64,000 nt of DNA, from assembly GCA_000531095.1 (NCBI GenBank), contig HG799464.1:828339-892338 (forward strand), given 5' to 3'. Made by a program: the position numbers and the translations under genes. Origin of the DNA: Gemmata massiliana. Lineage in GTDB: Bacteria; Planctomycetota; Planctomycetia; Gemmatales; Gemmataceae. Numbering within the stretch: position 1 is the stretch's first letter; every line of letters begins with the position of its first letter. The notes below the pieces were generated by a model. That model made no database searches, was not told where the DNA came from, and worked only from the letters and a program-made list of their open reading frames with translations. Below, piece after piece: positions 28,020-48,821 of the stretch.

Positions 28020-28256
28020 ATGGCCAATAAACCGTCCTCCCCCGCGCAGAGCAACCACACACCGGTCAGTCAACGCACGAACCCGGCAGCCGCGTCGGAA
28101 TCGGTGTCACTGCAACCCGCTTCCCATCCCGCGAAAGTGAGCACCGACAAGATTCGAGCACGAGCGTTCTTCTTGTGGGAACAGGCCGGCCAACCGGAAG
28201 GTGACGGGGTCGAGTTCTGGTTGCGTGCGGAACAGGAGCTGGCCGCCCCGCGGTAG
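28020..28256 (+). CDS. DUF2934 domain protein
   Basis: 78-residue protein; ATG 28020 is preceded by GGAG at suitable spacing. The first 45 residues are low-complexity (Ser, Pro, Ala, Asn). The C-terminal part, KIRARAFFLWEQAGQPEGDG then FWLRAEQEL, is the DUF2934 motif, a short helical domain often attached to stress or regulatory proteins in proteobacteria and planctomycetes. No membrane segment is present. It is the only plus-strand gene in the first half of the island. The stop codon overlaps the start of a dispersed repeat at 28255. Confidence 0.8.
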   Translation: MANKPSSPAQSNHTPVSQRTNPAAASESVSLQPASHPAKVSTDKIRARAFFLWEQAGQPEGDGVEFWLRAEQELAAPR

Positions 28257-28391
28257 GTTGTGGCTGTGACCCCTCCCCAACCCCTCCCCTAAACGGAGAG
28301 GGGCTTCAAACCGTCTCGGACCGTATTGTGTCTGCTGTTTTTAGTTTCTGTTCCCCCTTCCTTCTTAGGGAAGGGGGTTAGGGGTTAGGTT
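28255..28391. repeat. Dispersed repeat, copy A
   Basis: About 137 bases related over nearly their whole length to 48509-48645 in the opposite orientation. Shared blocks are AGGTTGTGGCT, CCCCTCCCCAACCCCTCCCC, GGAGAGGGGCTT and TTCTGTTCCCCCTTCCTT, ending GGGTTAGG. Inside are two short palindromes (CCCCTCCCCTAAA..GGAGAGGGG and CCCCCTTCCTTCTTAGGGAAGGGGG). It follows the DUF2934 stop codon. Confidence 0.8.
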
Positions 28392-47417: not shown

Positions 47418-48821
47418 TCATTTCTGCAGTTCCGCGCGCAATTTCGCTTCGAGTTCGTCGGCCCGGTCGATGTTTCGCGCGCGGATGTCGTTGACCTCCC
47501 AGCGATCATCGGGCTTCTCGTACAGCAGCGGCTCGCGCGGAGCATCACCTTCGGGCACGCGGACCGGCACCAACAGGGCCGAATCTTCCGTGCGAATGGC
47601 AATTTCGGCCGCGTCACCGAGTTCGAGTTTCGTGCAGACGAAGGTGCGCGATGATTCCGCTTCGCCGTGCGCGAGCGGGAGAAGGCTGAAACCGCGAGAG
47701 TTGATAGGTGGAGTAGTCCCGAAGAGTGCGTGAAGGGTGTGGAACACGTCCGGCGGTTGCGTGAAGCCCAACACACGGCGCCCGGCTTGTTTCCCTTGGG
47801 GGAGGCGCATGATAAGAGGCAGGTGGACGAATTCTTCATGAAGCCAGGGGCGGTGCAACCCGATCTGCCCGTGTTCGCCGAGCGGGTGACCGTAATCCGA
47901 TGTCACGACCCACGCTGCGGATTGGTCCAGCCCGCGCTCGCGCAGGTGCTCGAAAAGGCCACCGAGTTCGGCGTCGAGTTTCGTCACGACGGCTGCGAAT
48001 GTGCGGTGCAGCCAGTCCCAGGCGTCGAGATCGCCCCGGTCGAATGGTCCGGTAGGCGGGTCGGCGAACGGTGTTACCGGTTCCTCTTCGGGCAATGGCT
48101 GAGGATCAGTTTCGACCTCAACGTCCGGCTCCTCAAGATCCTCAGTTTCGTGTTCAGCGACTTCCCCCTCACCGTCAATTTCGTCCGCGTTGTCCGGGTC
48201 ATCCTCGCTTTGGTGGTCCGAATCCTCTTCGGGTTCCAGCTCCTCCGTGTCTTCCAAGTACGCTTCAAACACGTCCTGTTGCACGTCCCACGGCGGAATG
48301 AGTCGATCGGTCTCGACCCAGAGCAGGAAATCGGGAACGTCCGCGAGTCGATCGAGGATCGCGGGGAACGTGCGGAGCAACGCTTCGAGCGGGGAATCAT
48401 CGGTCGCTTGCGGTCGGGCGTCGAACACTTCGTCCCAGCCGGCGTAGAACCAGTCGGGAGCGTCCGTATCGGGGTGATTCGCGCGAATGAGAATGGATCG
48501 GGGAGCAGAACCTAACCCCCTACCCTCCTTCCCTAGGAAGGAAGGGGGAACAGAACCAAACGCAACCGGCGCCACGCCGCTCTCACTGCTTTTAAGCCCC
48601 TCTCCATTTAGGGGAGGGGTTGGGGAGGGGTTCGAGCCACAACCTGCCCCCAGCCACGCCCGGCGCGCGGCGGTCGGTTCGGGGCAGTCACTGATGTGCC
48701 GGTCGAACGTGACGGCTTCGGACGCGAGGCGGTCGAGGTGCGGGGTGCCGACCCAATCGTTACCGTAAGCGCCCAGCCAACTGGCCGGGCACCCGTTCAG
48801 TGCGAAGAAGATGACTTTCAT
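47418..48821 (-). CDS. Sulfatase-fold protein containing an in-frame dispersed repeat
   Basis: 467 residues. The start MKVIFFALNGCPASWLGAYG and GTPHLDRLASEAVTFDRHIS, and the later WVVTSDYGHPLGEHGQIGLH (quoted in part) and FVHLPLIMRLPQGK, identify the alkaline-phosphatase/sulfatase fold. The active-site position that is CxPSR in sulfatases reads PTAAR, so formylglycine formation is not possible as written. Residues about 60-107 are encoded by a dispersed repeat (48509-48645) that keeps the reading frame open immediately after that signature. A second insert at about 190-245 is extremely acidic. No signal peptide is visible. Hydrolase activity is doubtful; a binding or degenerate role is possible. 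Confidence 0.72.
   Translation of the reverse strand: MKVIFFALNGCPASWLGAYGNDWVGTPHLDRLASEAVTFDRHISDCPEPTAARRAWLGAGCGSNPSPTPPLNGEGLKSSESGVAPVAFGSVPPSFLGKEGRGLGSAPRSILIRANHPDTDAPDWFYAGWDEVFDARPQATDDSPLEALLRTFPAILDRLADVPDFLLWVETDRLIPPWDVQQDVFEAYLEDTEELEPEEDSDHQSEDDPDNADEIDGEGEVAEHETEDLEEPDVEVETDPQPLPEEEPVTPFADPPTGPFDRGDLDAWDWLHRTFAAVVTKLDAELGGLFEHLRERGLDQSAAWVVTSDYGHPLGEHGQIGLHRPWLHEEFVHLPLIMRLPQGKQAGRRVLGFTQPPDVFHTLHALFGTTPPINSRGFSLLPLAHGEAESSRTFVCTKLELGDAAEIAIRTEDSALLVPVRVPEGDAPREPLLYEKPDDRWEVNDIRARNIDRADELEAKLRAELQK
48509..48645. repeat. Dispersed repeat, copy B, inside a coding sequence
   Basis: Inverted relative to copy A (28255-28391), with the same ordered blocks: GGGTTAGG end, AAGGAAGGGGGAACAGAA, AAGCCCCTCTCC and GGGGAGGGGTTGGGGAGGGG, then AGCCACAACCT. 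It lies wholly within the sulfatase-fold gene on the minus strand and is read through in frame as a Ser/Pro/Gly-rich segment. Confidence 0.82.

Follow-up and report, generated by a model that had tools for sequence, protein, structure and literature searches.

The window analyzed here, a 64,000-nucleotide stretch of the Gemmata massiliana genome, contains an open reading frame (positions 47418-48821, minus strand) for a 467-amino-acid protein with the sulfatase fold of the alkaline phosphatase superfamily. Its C-terminal half (aa 270-368) matches the Pfam profile Sulfatase (PF00884; E=3.6e-12), and the AlphaFold model resembles solved sulfatases and sulfamidases (Foldseek E about 1e-15). Since the formylglycine motif C/S-x-P-x-R is absent, the protein is unlikely to be a classical sulfatase; the corresponding stretch reads SDxPxPxAARRAWLG, and the Cys is not conserved among orthologues. 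With a signature this degenerate, the original prediction that a repeat lies directly after the active-site signature cannot be upheld in that form. The gene is present in 18 of the 19 genomes of the genus, and orthologues are encoded on contigs of Gemmata sp., Gemmataceae, Fimbriiglobus, and unclassified Planctomycetia metagenome-assembled genomes. Comparison of the own genome (G000) with that of the relative G008 gave a dN/dS of 0.11 outside the insert, which indicates purifying selection and thus does not bear out the objection, considered at the outset, that the gene is untranslated. At residues of about 193-250, the same protein carries a further low-complexity linker, acidic and rich in Asp/Glu, whose length varies greatly; it is not a hairpin repeat and is missing from the Fimbriiglobus orthologues.

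The repeat within this gene, copy B, is a 124-bp palindromic element of family 1 in element frame (+,0) (48509-48632, minus strand; profile positions 1-124, E=6e-35). It lies wholly inside the reading frame, which stays open over all 467 codons as had been predicted, and adds about 150 nt or about 48 amino acids, AGCGSNPSPTPPLNGEGLKSSESGVAPVAFGSVPPSFLGKEGRGLGSAPR. The consensus was derived from 30 genomic copies, in whose alignment the parts of copy B were delimited on the minus strand as the left hairpin arm AACCCCTCCCCAACCCCTCCCCTAAATGGAGAGGGGCTT (48594-48632), a variable spacer of unconserved columns separating the two hairpins (48554-48593, ends approximate), and the right hairpin arm, consisting of TTCCCCCTTCCTTCCTAGGGAAGGAGGGTAGGGGGTTAGGTT and a few preceding bases (48509-48553). 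The repeat had originally been drawn from 48509 to 48645; the 124-bp core up to 48632 stands, but positions 48633-48651 (minus strand) belong to a neighboring hairpin module and read directly as GGGGGCAGGTTGTGGCTCG, a conserved spacer plus the remnant end of an adjoining family-2 module. A similar sequence, GGGGGGTAGGTTGTGGCTGT, stands before many other copies in the 30-copy alignment. In the structural model, the insert (residues about 59-107) is predicted to be disordered, with residues 60-104 mostly at a pLDDT under 50, and is flanked on one side by a helix and on the other by a strand of the confident fold. Between G000 and G008, insert B differs by 2 changes in 150 nt (dS of 0.024 versus 0.23 elsewhere in the gene). 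The low divergence extends over positions 48470-48700 of the window, i.e., copy B plus its immediate flanks, and hints at recent recombination.

The profile built from the 30 genomic copies matches the window twice, at copy B and at copy A (28269-28391, plus strand; E=5e-33), and finds no third copy. They are oriented oppositely and 78.7% identical over 141 bp (E=8e-28), which confirms the dispersed repeat with two related, mutually inverted copies. Copy A is an intergenic family-1 element as predicted, but it is not quite free-standing, since it ends a small open reading frame of 78 amino acids (28020-28256, plus strand). The TAG stop of this frame (28254-28256) lies in the outer end of the copy A module, just as stops supplied by the ends of REP elements have been described in other bacteria.

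Anatomy and genomic distribution of the elements

In the 30-copy alignment, the 124-bp core of family 1 is composed of AACCCCTCCCCAACCCCTCCCCTAAACGGAGAGGGGCTTAAAACC, a variable stretch, and TGTATTTGGTTCTGTTCCCCCTTCCTTCTTAGGGAAGGGGGTTAGGGGGTTAGGTT; the element comprises a pair of G+C-rich hairpins, inverted relative to each other and separated by this variable spacer, with AACC and GGTT at the ends. Family 2 has the structure AACCTACCCCCCC-hairpin-spacer-hairpin-GGGGGGTAGGTT and often adjoins family 1 with a conserved spacer, and a third hairpin, CTCCGGCCCGCGAGAAGCTTCGCTGACAGGGCCGGAGAGC, is located within the hairpin loops of family 1. Several families end in the imperfect terminal inverted repeats AACCTA(A)CCCC / GGGG(T)TAGGTT. 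Another hairpin or terminus was found at a distance of 70 bp or less in 17 to 19 of 40 copies, compared with none of 452 background tiles. Family-1-type matches are confined to one taxonomic family within the order searched, and the right-arm type by itself is also present in other genera of that family. A search against Rfam returned no informative match, only a single chance match to a microRNA.

Two further kinds of repeat were observed. A palindromic family GGGGGGCGTAAGCCCCC ... GGGGGCTTACGCCCCCC fills two shared sites, L179 in an ABC gene of G001 and L201 in a P-ATPase gene of G016. The short dispersed repeat ACGCTCCCCTTCGGGTCGCGGCTAA stands at the sulfatase site of G004 and G009 and also elsewhere in G001 and G004, with copies at L039 position 2562 (minus), L044 position 1456 (plus), L179 position 1352 (minus), and L278 position 2280 (minus); it was not found in 464 kb of G008 and G000 sequence.

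In G000 (9.27 Mb, 22 contigs), scoring of 40 out of 145 candidates yielded at least 46 matches, and family 1 has no fewer than 40 copies in this genome. According to the codon-usage score, 14 of the 40 scored copies are situated at gene ends and 19 elsewhere, while the count of copies in genes called for by the original prediction came to 7, all in frame and flanked by coding sequence on both sides; some of these in-gene calls combine a simple codon-usage score with orthologue flanks. Conserved stops occur in four of the six element frames, and the in-gene copies use the two frames free of them, (+,0) and (-,2), which read NPSPTPPLNGEGLK...SVPPSFLGKGGRGLG and PNPLTPFPKKEGGTEPN...LSPSPFRGGVGEGL. 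The question whether one reading frame is open more often is answered by these stops: as they block four of the six frames, the frames used reflect a filter and are no proof of coding selection in intergenic copies. Coding selection deduced from open intergenic copies was rejected: 25 and 20 of the 40 copies are open in the two usable frames, about as many as expected by chance for a variable spacer some 15 codons long.

The complete genome G008 allowed an unbiased estimate. Six repeat clusters were counted in a 400-kb sample, and a single one lay in frame within a gene; this extrapolates to about 25 in-gene repeats per genome with a wide error. Since 23 of the 24 sites named below are occupied in G008, the range becomes 25 to 60, and a genome of this kind would carry about that many in-frame copies within its genes.

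Paired, inverted hairpins bring to mind REPINs, and three matches to the RAYT transposase domain (Y1_Tnp) were found in G000. That a RAYT moves them as canonical REP/REPIN elements is nevertheless very unlikely, given that the complete and insert-rich genome G008 has zero Y1_Tnp (PF01797) matches, that two of the three genes in G000 have no repeat nearby and a copy lies at about 1.2 kb from the third, which is the weakest match and a partial one, and that the ends AACCTA(A)CCCC/GGGG(T)TAGGTT lack a 5' GTAG or CGTC head. A RAYT as the necessary mobilizer was rejected, because a complete relative manages without any Y1_Tnp match. The elements are presumably mobile, as their distribution suggests; this is the sense in which the term is used, because neither a target-site duplication nor a transposase was found. 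In the comparisons of occupied and empty sites, no target-site duplication is visible, and no pair was close enough to decide.

Shared sites and their changing content

With respect to the sulfatase site, G003, G011, G013, G014, and G017 have orthologues without any insert, and G018 has a remnant at most, so the segment is not a constant part of the protein, which removes one objection anticipated in the original prediction. Copy B is common to G000 and G008, whereas G012 carries family 1 in the opposite orientation. Other palindromes occupy the site in G001, G007, G016, G005, and G010, and an apparently decayed one is found in G002. The family-1 search had no match in G009, G011, G013, G014, and G017, whose sulfatase genes have neither a family-1 nor a family-2 insert; G006 also had no match, yet its gene contains another palindrome. 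The insert starts directly past the codons for Trp-X-Gly, save in the group of G010, G006, and G018. Even sister species differ: G001 has a family-1-like palindrome and G004 a short, unrelated dispersed repeat, and G005 and G009 likewise carry different kinds. On the sulfatase gene tree, the insert label changes at least five times, with at least three changes forced by well-supported branches. The loop LGGxLPxGSRL of G004 and G009 had been taken for the ancestral empty site; this was withdrawn, as the loop is itself a copy of the short repeat that also occurs at other loci of G001 and G004.

A domesticated insert, i.e., a selected functional linker or an mRNA regulatory hairpin, would account for the persistence of occupied sites and for the near identity of insert B in G000 and G008 (dS of 0.024 versus 0.23, see above). 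It is hardly credible in view of the other species, whose inserts vary in sequence, length, and orientation, and of the many orthologues that have no insert. Because the low divergence reaches the flanks of copy B, local recombination is suggested rather than selection on the insert. Most likely, the insert is neutral or slightly costly linker DNA without a selected function.

The sulfatase gene is not an isolated case. At least 24 conserved genes in seven genomes of the genus have a repeat at the same codon-level site, and its family, length, or orientation depends on the species. Sixteen of these sites were ascertained in G000, G008, or G012, namely, the sulfatase site and those in 15 further genes with in-frame family-1 copies, which were compared with their orthologues. 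From knowledge of such sequences rather than a profile search, we take these 15 to be RecD2, RecO, RarA, SelB, ThiL, a P-type ATPase, an HpnE-like and an ATP-grasp protein, a DcuC-like protein, an IGHMBP2-like helicase, an ABC ATPase, a GT87-like, an amino-acid-kinase-like, and a PHP-like protein, and one unknown. The reciprocal set of eight, ascertained in G001 with its own repeat family, comprises the genes for NuoL, an ABC ATPase, QueG, and PlsC-like, IspA-like, CheA-like, CobW-like, and ArnT-like proteins. The identity of NuoL was confirmed, and its insert sits where solved homologues have a turn of 2 to 6 residues.

Outside the genomes of ascertainment, 52 of 100 pairs of site and genome are occupied, a site counting as occupied when its repeat was also present in at least two further loci fetched from that genome. 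Forty-nine of these 52 inserts are stop-free and a multiple of three in length (binomial p=2.8e-20 against 1/3); the test assumes independent sites, and since the species are related, this value is a guide and not an exact probability. Seven of the eight sites ascertained in G001 are occupied in G008, against the baseline of one in-frame in-gene repeat per 400 kb in the G008 sample. Judging from the conserved frame and the purifying selection on the flanks, the inserts are probably translated into protein. The different repeats at the sulfatase site and at least 23 others, nearly always in frame, lend support to the earlier proposal that the repeat may be a source of new protein segments.

An exception to the preserved frame is found in G000, whose reading frames are broken at 6 of the 16 examined sites (L148, L006, L152, L153, L151, and L011, i.e., RecO, AAK, SelB, P-ATPase, RarA, and ABC), although the same genes are intact in G008. 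Because the differences between both genomes at these sites mostly fall into C or G homopolymers, the breaks are likely draft assembly errors inside hairpins; real decay would be the alternative. An assembly artifact as the explanation of the whole phenomenon was rejected, since like inserts recur at these sites in multiple independent assemblies, one of which consists of a single contig.

The content of the sites was compared between species pairs. For G000 and G008 (96% flank identity), the mean similarity of inserts at the same locus is 0.56 versus 0.26 after permutation, and the same-locus insert is the best match in 11 of 16 cases. For G008 and G012 (91% flank identity), the values are 0.28 versus 0.23 (p=0.036), and in more distant pairs the similarity is near that of unrelated or permuted loci (p=0.74 for G008 and G016). 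Site content is accordingly inherited in the closest species pair and nearly all replaced at 91% flank identity, while the sites persist. The orientation at one site flips in the sulfatase gene (G000/G012), the ATP-grasp gene (G000/G008), and the PHP-like gene (G008/G012). Even between G000 and G008, the ATP-grasp site is altered in both orientation and content, and the HpnE and GT87 sites have gained or lost family 1.

Origin of the inserts

The repeats are dispersed, their sites are held in common by most of the species that bear repeats, the contents of these sites are altered beyond the closest species pair, and the reading frame is preserved in nearly all species. We consider it probable that a genus-level set of nonautonomous palindromic elements is responsible, a minority of which stands in frame in conserved genes at sites that persist while their contents turn over. 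Paired G+C-rich hairpins of about 100 to 150 bp per family, often nested, would have spread through the genomes of Gemmata-like planctomycetes, where most copies would survive at gene ends or between genes. An in-frame minority would survive at loops and turns, read by the host as disordered linkers rich in Pro, Ser, and Gly. A site once occupied would presumably remain a target, with new copies entering or adjoining old hairpins; arms would invert, copies would be deleted or converted, and outcomes that break the frame would be removed by selection. Because selection purges such outcomes, the site would persist and its content turn over. Loops of proteins thus seem to be rewritten repeatedly by otherwise selfish DNA.

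A single ancestral insertion per gene, followed by concerted evolution through gene conversion, inversion, and deletion, would require no repeated targeting. The sites are shared far above chance, the inserts of G000 and G008 are inherited, as seen from the same-locus best matches, and the same alternative has been proposed for RPE-4/6/7 in a study of Rickettsia japonica (PMC3767692). Such a history is rather unlikely to be the full explanation, for sister species (G001/G004 and G005/G009) have different kinds of repeats at the sulfatase site, the insert label changes repeatedly on the gene tree, partly along well-supported branches, and conversion leaves the changes of orientation and composite structure at one site unexplained.

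Insertion anywhere in the genome would also be compatible with the surviving inserts being nearly all in frame and most copies lying outside genes, if only a few dozen loops tolerated 50 extra residues and were hit independently in each species; the examined sites do lie in disordered or turn regions. As a pure filter of tolerance this is unlikely, since in many species the left junction varies by no more than a few bases, as after the Trp-X-Gly codons of the sulfatase gene. Moreover, a proteome should in our judgment offer far more tolerant loops, whereas in-gene copies coincide at least about half of the time. The ancestral insertion and the independent hits on tolerant loops each explain part of the data.

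Directed insertion, in which new copies would use existing hairpins as landing pads or the DNA of the loop would itself be recognized, so that in each species a fixed set of a few dozen core-gene sites is rewritten by whichever family is active, is possible, though we lean toward doubting it. If true, selfish DNA would replace protein loops as a standing, recurrent process, with RecO, RarA, SelB, ThiL, and NuoL among the sites. In a genus with large genomes and many sequenced species, the choice between a hotspot and one old insertion is directly testable. Among the species, a single loop of one and the same housekeeping enzyme is extended by about 0, 20, 50, or 100 residues, a ready-made series for comparison. 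For annotators, peptides like PLPEGKGE or PSPTPPLNGEG in these proteins are recognizable as derived from DNA repeats.

Relation to known palindromic elements

Most work on protein-coding palindromes has concerned Rickettsia and Wolbachia. Our literature search found no report of such in-gene repeats in Gemmata-like bacteria. Family 1 belongs in this category as a dispersed palindrome of 124 bp with at least 40 copies; in-frame inserts are present in 24 genes, and empty orthologues exist.

Elements with paired hairpins inside open reading frames are also known from intragenic GTAG/CGTC REPs, which occur in many replication and repair genes and whose ends supply stop codons; in recB of Xanthomonas, different REPs stand at about the same site (PMC3733652). 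The elements described here are longer, have two hairpins and no GTAG/CGTC head, abound in G008 without a Y1_Tnp match there, and are found in genes for respiration, biosynthesis, and transport as well. Neither tetranucleotide stands at the 5' foot of the hairpin, as family 1 ends in AACC.. and ..GGTTAGGTT and family 2 has GTAG on the 3' side only. Two REP-like hairpins in inverted orientation, as in a REPIN, are present, but a RAYT gene flanked by the repeat is not. Bacterial MITEs, e.g., ERIC and Correia elements, are small, have imperfect terminal inverted repeats, and form in-frame fusions with open reading frames (PMC2229807). Imperfect terminal inverted repeats are likewise present in several families of the Gemmata-like elements, for which the occupied and empty sites compared show no target-site duplication and no parent insertion sequence came to light.

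The closest counterparts are the RPE families of Rickettsia (Ogata et al. 2000, 2002), palindromic and dispersed, with a fraction in frame in unrelated conserved genes (PMC2229807, PMC10969869). The likeness to Rickettsia palindromic elements, suggested from the beginning, is supported as one of kind: the elements are alike in their size of about 100 to 150 bp, dispersal, and tolerance in frame. Unlike RPEs, those of Gemmata-like bacteria occur in a different phylum and nest with other families, and the reciprocal test in seven genomes revealed sites that persist while their content is replaced. For RPE-4/6/7, different groups were found in Rickettsia orthologues at one site or close to it, and the choice between a hotspot and a common origin was left open (PMC3767692). 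Here, by comparison, whole families, orientation, and length differ at a site, and the constraint on the reading frame was tested on sites outside the discovery set.
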